A DNA stretch of 64,000 nucleotides from Candidatus Zixiibacteriota bacterium. GTDB taxonomy: Bacteria; Zixibacteria; MSB-5A5; GN15; JACZUZ01. Below the pieces are notes generated by a model. That model was given only the letters and a program-made list of their open reading frames with translations, did not search any database and was not told the origin of the DNA. This document shows, piece after piece, positions 15,615 through 34,606 of the stretch (its first letter is position 1; the number at the start of each line of letters is the position of its first letter). Both the position numbers and the translations under genes were made by a program. The DNA lies in NCBI GenBank assembly GCA_024280835.1, contig JAJRPJ010000015.1, positions 1-64,000 of the forward strand, read 5' to 3'.

Positions 15615-15696
15615 ATGTTCGACTGAGTATTATACTGTTTTTTGCAATTCAGCCGATTACAGAATTCGGTTGGATAATACAAAGGAGATTTCTGAA

Positions 15697-17052
15697 ATGT
15701 CCATAGAATTAGGTATAGCGGTCATAATTGGATTGGCGCTTGGCGTAGGTCTTGGTTGGCTTTTGGGTAGCAGAAAAGCAGCTGTTGCTGAAGGAAGAGT
15801 GAAGGAACTACAGCGAGTTCGTGACGATGCTGACAAAAATTTCAAAGCTCAACGAGAACAGTATCAAGGAAAGTGTGATGATGCTATAGGGAAATTAGGT
15901 TCGCTTAAGACTGAGTTGAAGTTAAAGGAAGAGAGCTTTAAATATCTGAAGGATTCAATTGATAAGGCCAAAGAGTCGCTAAGTCAAACTTTCAGTGTGC
16001 TTGCTTCGGATGCACTGAAAGATTCAAAAACAGAACTTGTGAAGCTGGCGGTTGAAAAGATTAATGATTCACAGAAGACAGCGGATTCTGGCCTCAAAGA
16101 GATTATGACTCCATTGAAAACGAAGCTCGCAGAATTTCAAGAGGCGACGAGACAGTTAGAGTTAACGCGGCTTGAAGACAAAACTACAATTGGTTTGACT
16201 CTAGAATCACTCTCTAAGCAAACAAGGAAACTTTCGGAGGTGCTTGGAGCGCCGAAAAGCAGAGGAAATTGGGGCGAAATACAACTGAAGAGAACCCTCG
16301 AACTAGCAGGGATGTCCGAGCATTGGGCTTATGACGAACAGGTGTATGTTCGTGATGAAGATGGTAAGGGCAGCTTGGCGGATATTATCATTCGCCTCCC
16401 TAATGGACGCAATATTATTGTAGATTCAAAAGTGCCAAGAAATGACTTTGACGCAGCCAACGAATCTTCAGACGATTCAGAAAGAGTTGTTGCTCTGAAG
16501 GCGCATGCGACTACCGTTCTTGATCACGTTAATGGATTAGCGAGTAAAGAGTACTGGAGGAAGTTTGAGTCTGTTCCTGAATTTGTAGTAATGTTCGTTC
16601 CTGATGATTCTTTTCTTGCGTCTGCCGCGGTGATTAATCCTGACATATTTGAGCGCGCTATTAAGAGCAAAGTTGTCTTGACAACCCCATCGACTCTATA
16701 TGCACTATTGCGGGCTGTTGAAGCGGGTTGGAAACAACAACAGATTGAAGAGTATACAAAATTGATTGCGAAGCACGGGCAGGAACTGTACGAACGTTTG
16801 TGTAAAGCAATTGTGCTTTTCAACGAGCTTGGTGATAAAGTGGGATCCACAGTAACTAAGTATAATGAATTGGTAGGTTCAGTCGACAGTATGTTGATTC
16901 CTGGCGCCGAGAAATTTGTTAAGTTAGGTATACGAGAAACAAAGAAAATTTCACAAACAAAGGCAATCGACAGACCAATAAGGAGAATCAAAGAGCGTAT
17001 TAGCTCAGATATAGATTCTACCATAGAAATAAATATCGAAGATCATAAGTAG
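15697..17052 (+). CDS. rmuC: RmuC family DNA recombination protein
   Basis: 451 aa from ATG 15697, which has AAAGGAG 8 bases upstream. A single N-terminal membrane segment (IAVIIGLALGVGLGWLLG) is followed by a long coiled coil (about residues 25-150) and the RmuC nuclease-like core with GNWGEIQLKRTLE and IIVDSKVP. RmuC proteins limit inversions at short repeats in E. coli and are predicted PD-(D/E)xK-type nucleases. It is spaced 17 bp from the selenoprotein gene, so co-transcription is likely. Confidence 0.93.
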   Translation: MSIELGIAVIIGLALGVGLGWLLGSRKAAVAEGRVKELQRVRDDADKNFKAQREQYQGKCDDAIGKLGSLKTELKLKEESFKYLKDSIDKAKESLSQTFSVLASDALKDSKTELVKLAVEKINDSQKTADSGLKEIMTPLKTKLAEFQEATRQLELTRLEDKTTIGLTLESLSKQTRKLSEVLGAPKSRGNWGEIQLKRTLELAGMSEHWAYDEQVYVRDEDGKGSLADIIIRLPNGRNIIVDSKVPRNDFDAANESSDDSERVVALKAHATTVLDHVNGLASKEYWRKFESVPEFVVMFVPDDSFLASAAVINPDIFERAIKSKVVLTTPSTLYALLRAVEAGWKQQQIEEYTKLIAKHGQELYERLCKAIVLFNELGDKVGSTVTKYNELVGSVDSMLIPGAEKFVKLGIRETKKISQTKAIDRPIRRIKERISSDIDSTIEINIEDHK

Positions 17053-17069
17053 GGACAGATAGGAGTAAA

Positions 17070-17606
17070 ATGGCTTATATCAAGTACATTGACTATGCAG
17101 ACGCTGATGCACATCAGAAGAAAGTTCTAGAAAAGTATGGCGGCGAAAATAATCAGCCAGATAACATTATTCGCATATCGAGTGTGAATCCTGCGGCTAT
17201 GGAAGGGCATATTTCTCTTTACCGCAATACTCATCGAGGATCGTCGCCCGTTACGCGTTTGCAGCGGGAGATGATTGCGGTGACGGTTTCAGGTATTAAC
17301 TCTTGTCACTACTGAGTGGTTCACCATAGTCGGGGCTTTATCGCTCTGGGAGGGTCGGAGACCCTCATCGCTCAAATTGCCGACGATTATACTTCCGCTG
17401 AGATTAGTGACGCGGAAATGGCTATGCTTGGCTTTGTCGCAAAACTTACGCATGAGCCTTGGGAGATGGATGAAGATGATGTTGAGATCTTGCGTAGTCA
17501 TGACTTCGATGATCGCGCGATTCATGATATCACACAGGTTGCGGCATATTTTAACTATGTCAACCGTATCGCTGATGGTCTCGGTGTGGAATTAGAAACG
17601 AAATAA
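17070..17606 (+). CDS. AhpD-like peroxidase-related selenoprotein, CxxU active site (in-frame TGA)
   Basis: Read through the TGA at 17313-17315, the frame gives one 178-aa protein. Without read-through it breaks exactly inside the active site: SGINSCHY-U-VVHH. Homologues of the AhpD/carboxymuconolactone decarboxylase-like 'peroxidase-related' family have CHYCVxHH here, so the TGA sits at the second redox cysteine (Cys79, Sec82, with His85-His86 after it). Both halves match the family: LIR..NPAAMEGHISLY and REMIAVTVSG before, FDDRAIHDITQVAAYFNYVNRIADGLGVELE after. AhpD-like selenoproteins are an established group. The likely role is thiol-dependent peroxide or thiol-disulfide chemistry. A point mutation is possible, but the intact downstream frame argues against decay. 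No sel genes are in the window. Confidence 0.88.
17350..17366 (+). promoter_or_regulatory. Candidate bacterial SECIS hairpin downstream of the Sec codon
   Basis: GAGGGTC-GGA-GACCCTC is a perfect 7-bp stem with a three-base loop whose first two bases are G, as SelB-recognised loops usually have. The loop starts 41 bases after the TGA, slightly farther than typical bacterial elements, so its role is less certain than that of the Sec codon. Confidence 0.5.
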
Positions 17607-17640
17607 CGCCAGAACATTGTGGTTTTATGAGAGAGGATCG

Positions 17641-18240
17641 ATGAAGCCAGAAATCGAAGATTGTTTCAAGGCTCTGGAGAGTAGTTGCTCTGAGATAGTT
17701 AAATTGGTAAAGAGTCTGGACGAATCCCAATTACACTGGCGTTCTGATGCAGGTGTTTGGTCGGTTTGTGACTGTGTGAAGCACTTGATTAGTAGCGCTG
17801 AGGCGGTGCTTCCAGTTCAACGAGAGGCGATTGCCAAAGGTAGAGAGCGCAATATTCTTGGTGAGGGGCCGTTTCGGTATGGTTTTATCGGCAGGAAGTT
17901 TTTGGAGATGTTGGCGCCTCCACCTAAGAGGAAGTTCAAGGCGCCCAAGATGTTTTCCCCAGATGAAAGTGTCAGACCGACCTGCGCTGATTTGTTGGAA
18001 CGATTCAGTTCGATGCAAGTAAGAGCGCTGGAAGTTGTGAGCAGCGCCGACGGTCTGGATTTGCGGCGTGTTCGGGTTTCATCGCCAGTTACAAGTTTGT
18101 TGCGTTTTAATTTGGGGGTTTCACTGATGATACTTTCGACTCATCAGAGGCGGCATTATTGGCAAATGTGTCGTGTCATTGAAAATCTACAATTCCCGAA
18201 AACTACAATAACGCTGCCTGCAGATACTTCCAGCCAGTAG
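17641..18240 (+). CDS. DinB-like four-helix protein
   Basis: 199 aa from ATG 17641, preceded by GAGAGG; 34 bp after the selenoprotein gene. The pattern of a His after helix 2 (CVKHLISSAE) and a late THQRRHYWQ fits the metal triad of DinB/YfiT-like proteins, and W-x-VCDCVKHL is typical. Members are metal-dependent thiol transferases or hydrolases, often for bacillithiol or mycothiol; the substrate here is unknown. The context next to a thiol-redox protein and a flavin reductase suggests redox or detoxification work, which is inference. Confidence 0.75.
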   Translation: MKPEIEDCFKALESSCSEIVKLVKSLDESQLHWRSDAGVWSVCDCVKHLISSAEAVLPVQREAIAKGRERNILGEGPFRYGFIGRKFLEMLAPPPKRKFKAPKMFSPDESVRPTCADLLERFSSMQVRALEVVSSADGLDLRRVRVSSPVTSLLRFNLGVSLMILSTHQRRHYWQMCRVIENLQFPKTTITLPADTSSQ

Positions 18241-18282
18241 TTGAACAATTACAAATCAACAGATGATGGAGAGTTAGATATA

Positions 18283-18864
18283 ATGAGTCACACACCAAAG
18301 ATTTTAGCTTTTGCGGGTAGCGCTCGCAAAGGCTCGTTTAATAAGACCTTAGTGAAGATTGCCGCAGAGGGGGCTAGAGCGGTCGGGGCGGAAGTTACTT
18401 TCGTAGATTTTTCGGACTTTCCGATGCCAGTTTACGACCAAGACTTTGAGAGTGATAATGGCCTCCCAAAGGAAGTGTTGAAACTAAAAGAGCTAATGAA
18501 GGCGCATGATGGTTTTCTGATTGCCTCACCTGAACACAATGGAGCGCTTTCGGCTCTATTGAAGAATGTTATTGATTGGGTGTCCCGTCCTGCTGAGGGT
18601 GAATCGAGCTTGGAATGTTTCAAAGGTAAGGTTGCTACTTTGATGGCTACTTCACCTGGTGGGCTTGGTGGATTGCGTGGTTTGAACTCTGTCAGAGTGA
18701 TTCTTTCAGGTTTGGGAGTTATTGTTCTGCCAGATCAATTGGCGATTTCTGAGGCGCATGCCGCATTTGATGATAACGGGTCATTGAAGGATAGCAAAAA
18801 GCAAGAGCGAGTTGAAGCGTTGGGGAAGACTTTGGCAAAGACAATTGCCAAATTGAAGGCCTAG
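18283..18864 (+). CDS. NADPH-dependent FMN reductase family protein
   Basis: 193 aa from ATG 18283 (GGAGAG upstream); a TTG at 18241 in the same frame is less likely. The flavodoxin-like fold shows FAGSARKGSFN, the SPEHNGALSALLKNVIDW flavin/subunit motif and SPGGLGGLRG. Members reduce FMN, quinones or azo compounds with NAD(P)H. It follows the DinB-like gene by 42 bp and probably belongs to the same transcript as the selenoprotein. Confidence 0.9.
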   Translation: MSHTPKILAFAGSARKGSFNKTLVKIAAEGARAVGAEVTFVDFSDFPMPVYDQDFESDNGLPKEVLKLKELMKAHDGFLIASPEHNGALSALLKNVIDWVSRPAEGESSLECFKGKVATLMATSPGGLGGLRGLNSVRVILSGLGVIVLPDQLAISEAHAAFDDNGSLKDSKKQERVEALGKTLAKTIAKLKA

Positions 18865-31083: not shown

Positions 31084-31112
31084 TTGACCAAGCTCCAACA
31101 AGCGAATATACT
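31084..31112 (+). promoter_or_regulatory. Promoter of the cobalamin-riboswitch transcript
   Basis: TTGACC (31084-31089) and TATACT (31107-31112) with the ideal 17-bp spacer. Transcription would start near 31119, shortly before the riboswitch. Confidence 0.65.
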
Positions 31113-31154
31113 ACAATTGATAATGTCTCGGCGCCATATCGTGTTATCTACTTA

Positions 31155-31322
31155 GAATTAGTGCGATTGGCTAAGAGGGAAGTTCGGTGAAAATCCGACG
31201 CAGCCCCGCTACTGTAAGCGGCTACTGACGAAAGCATAGTTTGCCACTGGAGGTGTTTCTACTCTCTGGGAAGGCGCATTTGTCAGGTTTGAAGCCGCAG
31301 AGCCAGGAAACCTGCCTTGATA
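31155..31322 (+). promoter_or_regulatory. Cobalamin (B12) riboswitch
   Basis: The conserved core is read in order: GAGGGAAGTTCGGTG, AAATCCGACGCAGCCCCGC, TACTGTAAGCGG, GCCACTGG, GGGAAGGCGC, and GAAGCCGCAGAGCCAGGAAA-CCTGCC. This matches the adenosylcobalamin riboswitch family, including the B12 box (AGCCAGGAAACCTGCC). It lies directly upstream of a btuB-type receptor. Outer boundaries are approximate. Confidence 0.96.
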
Positions 31323-31368
31323 CAACCCTATAGGTCAGGAGATCCGCGCTGGGCGGTGATAATGACTA

Positions 31369-31437: not shown

Positions 31438-31469
31438 TTCTGATTTAATCAGAAAGGAGTGATTTCTGA
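31438..31469 (+). promoter_or_regulatory. Two mutually exclusive hairpins at the btuB ribosome binding site
   Basis: Hairpin A: TTCTGAT-TTA-ATCAGAA (31438-31454), leaving GGAG free. Hairpin B: TCAGAAA-GGAGTGA-TTTCTGA (31449-31469), holding GGAG in its loop and pairing up to the A of the ATG. Both have perfect 7-bp stems and share bases 31449-31454, so only one can form. This could give translational control in addition to the terminator. Confidence 0.5.
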
Positions 31470-33499
31470 TGAAGTCATTCTGTTTTTTCAATTCGTGTGA
31501 AAACGCCACGTGGGCGGCGCTTTCTTCATCAACAGCTTCACCAACAATCTTCTCATATCTAGCCGTAACCAAGGGCCTAGCGCTGTTTGTCATGATGCTT
31601 ATCCCTCTAATCGGTGGGTTTGCTAGTAGGTCATTGGCAGATGTCCCCGATACTACGAGCGTGCACCAGCTTGAGGGTATCGTCGTCGTTGCCAATAGTG
31701 AAAACACGCCTGTGCGTGAAGTTGGCAGCTCGGTAACTGTCATTACAGCCGAGGAAATTGAACGCTCCCAACAACAATCTGTCACAGAGATATTGCGCAA
31801 TGTCCCAGGACTTGATGTCGTGCAAACTGGCGCTAGAGGTGGATTGACTTCGGTGTGTATGCGTGGCTCCAATTCGGGGCACACTTTGGTGATTGTCGAT
31901 GGGATTGAAATGAATGATCCGTCGTCACCCAATGGCGCTTTCGATTTTGCGGATTTGAGTGTTGATAATATTGAGCGGATTGAAGTGTTGCGCGGTTCGC
32001 AGAGTATTCTCTATGGCTCAGAGGCCATTGGGGGAGTGATAAGTATTATTACTCGCACTGGGGCTGGGGCCCGCAAAACAACATTGAGCGCCAATTACGG
32101 CGCCTTTTCCACATCCAAAGTTTCGGCTGTAACTAGCGGTTCAACAGCGCGAGTAAGCTATTCTCTTAGCGCCTCCCGCACTGATTCAAAAGGTTTCTCG
32201 GCGACGGAGTCTTTGGTATCTAATGAACGTGATGACTATGGCTTGACGTCGCTCTCTGGGAAACTTGTAGTGCGTCCGAGTGACTATTCGCAAGTGAAAC
32301 TGACTGTCCGTTCATCTGATTCAAAGACTGACCTCGACAAGGGGTTTAGTAGTTTTACTAATTTCGGAGTCTTTGATGATTTGAATAACCTGCAGAGCTC
32401 CCGTAAAATATTCCTCAAAGCCGAAGCTGATATTAGTGACAGTAGTCAAGTTTGGCGCGGAAAAGTATCCGCTAGTTTTGCAAGTACTGATCGAACCGCT
32501 ACTGACTCTACCGATGCTGCCTTCGGAGCTGGTTTTCAGGACTCGAAATATGACTCAGAAACATTACATTTTGGCTTGAAAGGTATTCTCACTCCAATTG
32601 ACAATCAGCGCCTAATAGTTGGTGTGGAGACCGAGCGTGAATCTCTATCGCAAAACACGGATTTCGGTTTTGGCGCAAGCTCTTTAAGCAATATACATGC
32701 GATTACAACTGGTGTGTATGCTTTGGCGCAGTTGTCCGCTTCCGACAAACTCTTTGTGACCCTAGGAGTGCGTAATGACGATCATGAACGCTTTGGGAAT
32801 CATGCCAGCGCACGGGCAACTGCCACTTTGGCGCCTAGAGGGTTTGGTACACGCATCAAGGCTTCATTTGGGGGCGGTTTCAACGCGCCAACATTGTTTC
32901 AGTTATTTGATCCACTCTATGGCGATCCGACTCTTCAACCTGAGGAAAGCGAAAGCTGGGACATTGGGATTGAACAAAGGCTATTTGCTGGTAGAGCCAA
33001 TATGGGGGTGACTTGGTTTCATCAGTCTATCAACAATATCTTTGGTTTTGATCCAGCAACATTTAGGACAATCAATATTGCTTCTGCTTTGAGTGAAGGC
33101 GTCGAAGTCTTTGCCGATGTCAAATTGAATCAGTTCTTTGCTCGACTCGACTATACATATACTGATGCGATTGATAAGGTAGATGGTTCGTCTTTACTGC
33201 GTCGCGCAAAAAACAAAATTGTGTTTCGAGCGACATACACGCCGAATAAATTGACTAGCGCTAGCGTTCGTGTTCGTCATATTGGGGCAAGGTTTGATAA
33301 CGATTTTGAAATGTTTCCTGCTCAGAGAGTGACGCTTGGATCATATACAGTGGTTGGTTTGACCGCTCAACGAAAAGTCTTTGAGGGATTGACAGTCACA
33401 GGGCGAATTGAGAACCTTTTTGATAAGCAGTATCAGGATGTGTGGTATTATGCCACCAGTGATAGAGCTGTGTATTTTGGCGTGCGGTATTCGTTATAG
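31469..33499 (+). CDS. btuB: TonB-dependent outer-membrane receptor, BtuB type (vitamin B12 uptake)
   Basis: 676 aa. An unusually long N-terminus (about 57 residues, hydrophobic at GLALFVMMLIPLIGGFASRSLA) precedes a TonB box-like HQLEGIVVVA and the plug domain (SVTVITAEEIERSQQQSVTEILRNVPGLDVV, VIVDGIEMNDP, IEVLRGSQSILYGSEAIGGVISIIT). The 22-strand barrel follows and ends VYFGVRYSL. The ribosome site AAAGGAGTG lies in the hairpin region described separately. Regulation by the cobalamin riboswitch makes corrinoid transport the best call; energy would come from TonB/ExbBD. Confidence 0.93.
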   Translation: MKSFCFFNSCENATWAALSSSTASPTIFSYLAVTKGLALFVMMLIPLIGGFASRSLADVPDTTSVHQLEGIVVVANSENTPVREVGSSVTVITAEEIERSQQQSVTEILRNVPGLDVVQTGARGGLTSVCMRGSNSGHTLVIVDGIEMNDPSSPNGAFDFADLSVDNIERIEVLRGSQSILYGSEAIGGVISIITRTGAGARKTTLSANYGAFSTSKVSAVTSGSTARVSYSLSASRTDSKGFSATESLVSNERDDYGLTSLSGKLVVRPSDYSQVKLTVRSSDSKTDLDKGFSSFTNFGVFDDLNNLQSSRKIFLKAEADISDSSQVWRGKVSASFASTDRTATDSTDAAFGAGFQDSKYDSETLHFGLKGILTPIDNQRLIVGVETERESLSQNTDFGFGASSLSNIHAITTGVYALAQLSASDKLFVTLGVRNDDHERFGNHASARATATLAPRGFGTRIKASFGGGFNAPTLFQLFDPLYGDPTLQPEESESWDIGIEQRLFAGRANMGVTWFHQSINNIFGFDPATFRTINIASALSEGVEVFADVKLNQFFARLDYTYTDAIDKVDGSSLLRRAKNKIVFRATYTPNKLTSASVRVRHIGARFDNDFEMFPAQRVTLGSYTVVGLTAQRKVFEGLTVTGRIENLFDKQYQDVWYYATSDRAVYFGVRYSL

Positions 33500-33511: not shown

Positions 33512-34606
33512 TTAAGTAGTGTAGCGGGATTGCTGTAAGAATCTTTCGCGCCATTTGTTTGGTTCTGTTTGCAGGAGATATTGTTCTGCTAGTTCGGTGA
33601 CTTGCTGACGCGGCGGTAAAGTATTATTGAGGCCTTGTTGGATTCTGGTTCGCAGAGCTTTGGCGAAAGATAGCGGTGATTTGGTTGGATAGCGGTATTC
33701 GGTTGGGAAAAGCTCTGGATATGAAAGAGCGTCAGGGACAACTGGTATCGCGCCGCTAGCTACCGCTTCAAGAATTGAAAGTCCATAGAACTCTTGGGCG
33801 GTGGTTGAAACGACAATGTCCGACTGTGCGAGCAGCGCTTCGTAGTCCGCTCGTGATTCTGCGAAACCGAAATGAATTGTTTGTTCTGCTAGACGTTCTT
33901 TGGCTTCTGCGAAAATCTCGGGGGCTCTGTCGAATTGCTCGCCAAGGACAATAAGTTTGAAATCAAGTCCCTCTGCGGCAAGTCTAAATAGCGCCTCGAA
34001 GAATACTTCGGGGCGTTTGTCGTGTTCCCAACGATGATTCCAGAGGATTACGGGCGGGTTGTTGCGGGGTTGTGTATAGCCGGGAAGTATTTGAAGTGGT
34101 ATGGGGAAGATGTTGGCTTTGTTCTGGATGTTCTCGATGATTCGTGGTTGGTCTAGTTTTACTGGTAATTGATTCAGAAATGCTGTGGCGCCTTCAAGGA
34201 AGGTTGTTCGATTGAAGTCGCTATTGAAGAGCACAGAGTCTGCGGCAAGAGCTGTTGTGATGCTATTGTACATGGTTTGTTTTTCGGAGTCGCTGATGTT
34301 TGTGCGGAACGGATAATGGAATTGGTTCTCATGAAAATAACAGACGCAATGCGCCTTTTTCAAATTGGGCGAGAGGGCCAGTAGTTCGGTCAGGGGTGTC
34401 AGTGAGCCGATTAGCGCTATGTCGTATTCTATGCTTGGGTCAATCATCTGCGAGAATTGAAGTCCCGAGAGACGACTGCGCCATTTCCATTGACGGTCAG
34501 GCAATGTGTTGACAGTCCACTCCCAATCACAGAAGAGCGCTTGGAGCGCGTCGATTAACGCCATGTGCGAGAGGCAGGCGAAGGGTTCGAGGAAGAGGGC
34601 TTTCAT
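33512..34606 (-). CDS. Queuosine-tRNA mannosyltransferase-like glycosyltransferase (DUF3524/GTDC1 type)
   Basis: 364 aa. The N-terminal domain has the hallmarks of the DUF3524 family: LEPFACLSHMALIDAL, TLPDRQWKWRSRLSGLQFS, and CYFHENQFHYP (residues 88-99). The C-terminal half is a GT-B glycosyltransferase domain with NHRWEHDKRPEVFFEAL and the nucleotide-sugar motif EFYGLSILEAVASGAIPVVP. Human GTDC1 (QTMAN) mannosylates queuosine in tRNA-Asp. A bacterial homologue may do likewise or modify another target. It overlaps its upstream neighbour by 4 bases and converges on btuB, 12 bp apart. Confidence 0.85.
   Translation of the reverse strand: MKALFLEPFACLSHMALIDALQALFCDWEWTVNTLPDRQWKWRSRLSGLQFSQMIDPSIEYDIALIGSLTPLTELLALSPNLKKAHCVCYFHENQFHYPFRTNISDSEKQTMYNSITTALAADSVLFNSDFNRTTFLEGATAFLNQLPVKLDQPRIIENIQNKANIFPIPLQILPGYTQPRNNPPVILWNHRWEHDKRPEVFFEALFRLAAEGLDFKLIVLGEQFDRAPEIFAEAKERLAEQTIHFGFAESRADYEALLAQSDIVVSTTAQEFYGLSILEAVASGAIPVVPDALSYPELFPTEYRYPTKSPLSFAKALRTRIQQGLNNTLPPRQQVTELAEQYLLQTEPNKWRERFLQQSRYTT

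Follow-up and report, generated by a model that had tools for sequence, protein, structure and literature searches.

AhpD-like selenoproteins carrying a CxxU redox motif were found in the Sargasso Sea (27 sequences of an 'AhpD-like protein, CxxU'; PMC1088965), were counted 299 times in the GOS data under the name AhpD-like 1 (PMC2398784), and have been listed as COG2128 (PMC9312934) and, in a 2026 review, together with TIGR01926 (PMC13188914). The initial annotation of the DNA analysed here had stated that AhpD-like proteins with Sec in the CxxC motif exist, and these four papers agree with it. The gene described below belongs to that same family (Sargasso Sea/GOS AhpD-like 1, COG2128 YciW, TIGR01926; for example MCB9421940.1), with the same CxxU motif, in which Sec takes the second redox position; the clade formed by its genus and one further relative, L052, differs from the known family by a divergent SECIS arrangement. 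On the strength of the comparisons presented here, we regard it as a genuine and well-supported selenoprotein gene in a family known since 2005. Neither Sec in Zixibacteria nor a Zixibacteria member of the AhpD-like selenoproteins is mentioned in the papers that we found, which cover the literature in part and whose silence is a weak sign of newness. The interest of the locus is that it corrects a gene model which ordinary annotation would split, and that it points to very probable Sec decoding in an uncultured lineage of Zixibacteria type.

An AhpD-like reading frame that continues through a TGA

The window, that is, the whole stretch of 64,000 nucleotides that was analysed, opens contig C17 of a genome of 3.31 Mb that is 96% complete and was searched family by family. 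On its forward strand a reading frame opens with ATG at 17070, ends with a TAA stop at 17604-17606 and, when its only in-frame TGA is translated, gives a product of 178 residues in which the TGA stands at residue 82 (NSCHY-U-VVHHSRG). The features of the gene are:

17061..17065, + strand: probable ribosome-binding site AGGAG, judged from the sequence
17070..17606, + strand: predicted AhpD-like selenoprotein gene of the TIGR01926 family (reading frame, profile matches, AlphaFold2 model and Foldseek)
17268..17270, + strand: Glu67, whose spacing matches that of Glu118 in the proton relay of M. tuberculosis AhpD (alignment; PMC3141380)
17304..17306, + strand: Cys79, the invariant CxxU partner of Sec82 (homologue alignment)
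17313..17315, + strand: in-frame TGA, predicted Sec82 (46 of 75 homologous loci also have TGA here)
17325..17327, + strand: His86, whose spacing matches that of His137 in the same relay (alignment; PMC3141380)

With ordinary ORF calling this frame becomes two ORFs, one of 81 aa at 17070-17315 and one of 96 aa at 17316-17606, just as the initial annotation had anticipated when it described two same-frame halves parted by a single TGA that gene callers would separate. Both halves belong to one family, as the TIGR01926 'peroxidase-related enzyme' profile runs from residue 3 to residue 174 across the TGA, at 124.8 bits against a cut-off of 81.8. The arrangement is more than chance. The 178-aa product also matches Pfam CMD (36.3 bits, cut-off 23), and among known structures 2pfx aligns with it over residues 30-170. 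A residue-by-residue alignment with 2pfx, 3c1l and 6k40 likewise passes through the TGA, and all three structures have CxxC, with Cys at position 82, where the window protein has CxxU. In contrast, the product falls far below the cut-off of the classical AhpD profile TIGR00777 (15.1 bits against 191.95), and it is a member neither of NF041238, AhpD_rel_CFYUT (seleno)protein (55.5 bits against 175), nor of NF053654, YciW-related (seleno)protein (28.2 bits against 310), two related groups of (seleno)proteins to which its whole-length similarity is weak.

The AlphaFold2 model of the 178-aa product is an all-helical AhpD fold (mean pLDDT 91.8, pTM 0.88). Its best Foldseek matches are 6k40, 2pfx, 2prr and 3c1l, and with these and 2oyo, all peroxidase-related AhpD-like structures, it shares the fold at TM 0.83-0.91 (6k40 up to 0.91) and 26-32% identity; PA0269, the debrominase Bmp8 and sestrins come after them. 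Taken together with the evidence on codon 82 given below, we put at about 95% the probability that 17070-17606 encodes a Sec-containing AhpD-like thiol/selenol oxidoreductase of TIGR01926 ('peroxidase-related', COG2128). A scan of the window for read-through ORFs brought up other TGA-containing frames; homologues support 17070-17606 alone, and no other read-through ORF of the window has a redox motif at its TGA. The scan gave no further selenoprotein candidate.

Codon 82 in the homologues and the Sec machinery of the genome

Whether position 82 holds Cys or TGA in other members of the family, the comparison proposed with the initial annotation, was followed through 147 related genomes and the GTDB genomes, which yielded 75 distinct loci in the alignment. 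At codon 82, 46 of these have TGA, 21 have Cys and 8 have Ser; the Cys row L081, a misaligned fragment, was later dropped. Cys79 is invariant among the aligned homologues. One homologue, L039, had been considered as a double selenoprotein with two TGA codons and was rejected, since its second TGA ends the aligned stretch and is most likely the terminal stop.

In a maximum-likelihood tree of 71 sequences, all 46 Sec forms lie on one side of a single branch (96/82; recovered in 96% of bootstrap trees), where shuffling would lead one to expect about 21 changes. This Sec group takes in assemblies of Zixibacteria, Planctomycetota, Acidobacteriota and Chloroflexota. Adjoining it is a small group of Cys forms that come from related bacteria, and the other Cys and Ser groups, mainly from Pseudomonadota, are placed further off. 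The eight Ser-82 (CxYS) homologues (L078, L080, L084, L085, L086, L088, L091 and L095) are all from Pseudomonadota, form one supported clade (100/98) and keep C79, E67 and H86. The tree agrees with one old and stable Sec state, in a sampling that is centred on the query and with a root that is not fixed. The family offers a clear case in which Sec looks long and stably kept over several phyla, and the Cys and Ser forms fall outside the Sec group.

In the independent assembly of a relative, a gene that is 85% identical shares this TGA and shows no other disruption; because the TGA recurs in independent assemblies, a sequencing error at 17313-17315 is spoken against. The same observations bear on whether the TGA might be an ordinary stop, which would make the locus a pseudogene or two split genes whose 3′ half is either dead or started at GTG 17316. 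Standard ORF calling does return two ORFs, the second opening with that GTG directly after the TGA. However, such a split would part C79 from H86 of one active site, the relative's gene is otherwise intact, the TGA stands at the same position with intact flanks in 46 homologues of several phyla, the genome has the Sec machinery, and strict SECIS hairpins are found in the TGA forms only (see below), so that we consider an ordinary stop very improbable.

The initial annotation had deduced that this lineage has a Sec insertion pathway, and the search of the genome found its parts. A tRNA-Sec scores 65.7 bits, over the cut-off, and ARAGORN reads its anticodon as TCA; selA (499.5 bits) and selB (287 bits), both over curated cut-offs, lie side by side on contig C12; and selD (387.3 bits, over the cut-off) is on contig C8 (C8:144518-145438), with an in-frame TGA of its own in the active-site motif AGU-ASK (L018:1531-1533). 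A third gene, a further selenoprotein candidate that is deiodinase-like and located on contig C14 (C14:36560-36991; L109:1336-2067), matches PF00837 with 101.9 bits and has an in-frame TGA in SYT-U-PPF. A search of the genome for a SelW-like (Rdx) gene found none. To judge from the genes that are present, Sec is very probably decoded in this organism and built into three proteins or more (AhpD-like, SelD and deiodinase-like). Across the relatives, selA and/or selB exceed the cut-off in all TGA-bearing genomes except one that is fragmented (G050). Sec machinery is nearly universal among them, and because the Cys-form genomes have selA/selB too, its co-occurrence with the TGA adds little, providing consistency rather than discrimination.

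A TGA read as some residue other than Sec, such as Cys or Trp, through near-cognate suppression or a changed code, would also leave the frame open. UGA is reassigned in some lineages, and other homologues have Cys at position 82. Against this stand the dedicated tRNA-Sec(UCA) with selA, selB and selD in the genome, the standard code of the neighbouring window genes that were checked, several of which end in TGA, and the fact that in-gene UGA was found here only at redox positions of the AhpD-like, SelD and deiodinase-like families. We hold the chance of non-Sec decoding to be minimal. We infer instead Sec insertion at residue 82, as the initial annotation proposed, from the codons of the homologues, the machinery and the SECIS-type hairpins considered next; those of its proposed checks that are computational all spoke for it.

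Hairpins downstream of the UGA

The published bSECIS model asks for a stem of 4-16 bp and a loop of 3-9 nt with a G in its first two positions, at 16-37 nt from the UGA and with an energy of at most -7.5 kcal/mol (PMC13188914). Applied strictly, with uninterrupted stems, it is matched by 25 of the 46 TGA genes and by none of the 28 Cys/Ser genes, a clean separation. Looser scoring of hairpins against synonymous-codon shuffles gives a weak one, with a mean z of -1.03 in the TGA forms and of -0.08 in the Cys forms. Covariation is seen in 20 sequences from the window's order and its close kin, which share a seven-pair hairpin with a GUU loop at +20: all 126 of 126 cells are paired and three pairs are compensated. 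None of 500 shuffles equals it in percent paired, in doubly changed cells or in covariation score, and sliding the partners lowers the pairing to 43-57%. A second group of homologues has a GACCUCCG...GAGGUC-type hairpin at about +24. In the same genome as the window, selD has a hairpin with a C-GGU-G loop at +20 that agrees with the published model, and the deiodinase-like gene has an A-GGU-U loop hairpin about 17 nt 3′ of its TGA; aligning the genome's three SECIS regions directly with one another yielded no information. We also observed that a lower stem, beginning within the UGA codon, closes around the GGU-loop hairpin of selD. The Rfam scan of the window matched a cobalamin riboswitch alone and no SECIS.

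The arrangement in the window gene and its two nearest relatives (the window genus and L052, three sequences in all) is a different one, with two hairpins in a row:

17331..17348, + strand: hairpin 1, six bp, with a UUUAUC loop that starts 21 nt after the UGA and has no G in its first two positions (three clade members)
17350..17366, + strand: hairpin 2, seven bp, with a GGA apical loop (17357-17359) that starts 41 nt after the UGA; putative SECIS

Hairpin 1 has normal spacing and lacks the apical G; it is paired in 18 of 18 cells in the three clade members, with one compensated pair. Hairpin 2 agrees with the published model in everything except spacing, where 41 nt against 16-37 places it 4 nt too far. 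Both hairpins pair in all three sequences, a number that cannot exclude chance, as 165 of 500 shuffles were as good. Five codons over hairpin 2 are identical at synonymous sites in all three sequences (permutation p 0.037). Folding of single sequences gives modest z-scores, between -0.6 and -2.7 according to the stretch folded, so that we relied on comparison. Because a GG loop is common to the selD and the deiodinase-like gene of this genome, we chose hairpin 2 as the SelB site, and it is most likely the SelB-binding SECIS loop. SelB with Sec-tRNA(UCA) would accordingly be recruited by a stem-loop just 3′ of the TGA, most likely hairpin 2 helped by hairpin 1. How a loop at 41 nt might work is a matter for a more tentative proposal, whose odds we place clearly below even: in the window genus the upstream hairpin may have lost the SelB-binding G, and the GG-loop hairpin may have become the functional one, brought within reach of SelB by stacking of the intervening helix. 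The UGA stretch of the window gene can even form a lower stem with 17367-17374 that would close a three-way junction. The divergent SECIS of this clade may in this respect serve as a small test case for the rigidity of the SelB spacing rule.

Active site, probable activity and genomic neighbourhood

In M. tuberculosis AhpD the proton relay has been defined as E118, C130, H132, C133 and H137 (PMC3141380), and E67, C79, Y81, U82 and H86 of the window protein stand at the same spacing. Indeed, the E-(x11)-C-x-[HY]-C-(x3)-H spacing of the two-helix active-site motif in AhpD and in P. aeruginosa PA0269 is that of the window protein, with Cys in both where the window protein has Sec. In the homologue alignment, Glu67 is invariant in the Sec and Ser rows and in all Cys rows bar one that is gapped, and His86 is invariant across the Sec, Cys and Ser forms; all five positions, with U or C at 82, are invariant or nearly so in the Sec and Cys forms, and the Ser forms differ at 82. 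The five relay positions being kept, Sec would therefore replace the second Cys of the AhpD pair, the cysteine beside the relay histidine.

As in the AhpD relay, Glu67, Tyr81 and His86 would assist Sec82, paired with Cys79 in the all-helical fold. The analogy suggests that Sec82 would attack a peroxide or another electrophilic substrate; the resulting selenenyl species could be resolved by Cys79 as a selenenyl-sulfide and then re-reduced by an electron donor. Peroxide reduction is, on this analogy, the most likely activity. A real selenoprotein might instead catalyse some other reduction, such as reductive dehalogenation in the manner of the AhpD-fold debrominase Bmp8, or disulfide or adaptor chemistry. 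Bmp8 (6ohi, 6ohj) is among the structural matches at TM 0.75-0.78, the TIGR01926 structures are mostly annotated as merely 'peroxidase-related', PA0269 has the same fold and weak peroxidase activity (PMC3141380), and within the genus an FMN reductase is a close neighbour. Nevertheless, in sequence the window protein stands closer to the AhpD proteins annotated as peroxidase-related (TM up to 0.91), its five relay residues are all kept, and dehalogenation genes were not seen among the neighbouring genes examined. We judge a non-peroxidase role unlikely, a good deal less so than the two readings without Sec, and retain peroxide reduction as the preferred assignment.

The genes closest to the AhpD-like gene are:

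15670-17052: rmuC, upstream
17641-18240: DinB-like gene, downstream
18280-18864: FMN reductase, downstream of the DinB-like gene

Beyond the FMN reductase follow a small membrane-like protein and glutamate dehydrogenase. The same-genus relative (L051) has rmuC, the AhpD-like gene and the FMN reductase in the same order, and at the short locus of L052 just rmuC was found beside the AhpD-like gene, upstream of it, among the genes tested. No neighbour among the genes tested is common to the wider Sec group, and for this reason we claim no functional link for the neighbours, among which an operon partner was sought. In L051 the DinB-like gene (here delimited as 17640-18240) found no match between the AhpD-like gene and the FMN reductase, which makes it a candidate for recent insertion or loss.

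Two observations concern the window farther downstream. The cobalamin riboswitch (RF00174, 96.3 bits), at 31112-31333, lies upstream of a gene for a TonB-dependent receptor (31469-33499), which is probably a B12 or corrinoid transporter. The gene at 33512-34606 encodes a glycosyltransferase of the tRNA-queuosine alpha-mannosyltransferase family (PF12038 QTMAN_N, 156.7 bits).
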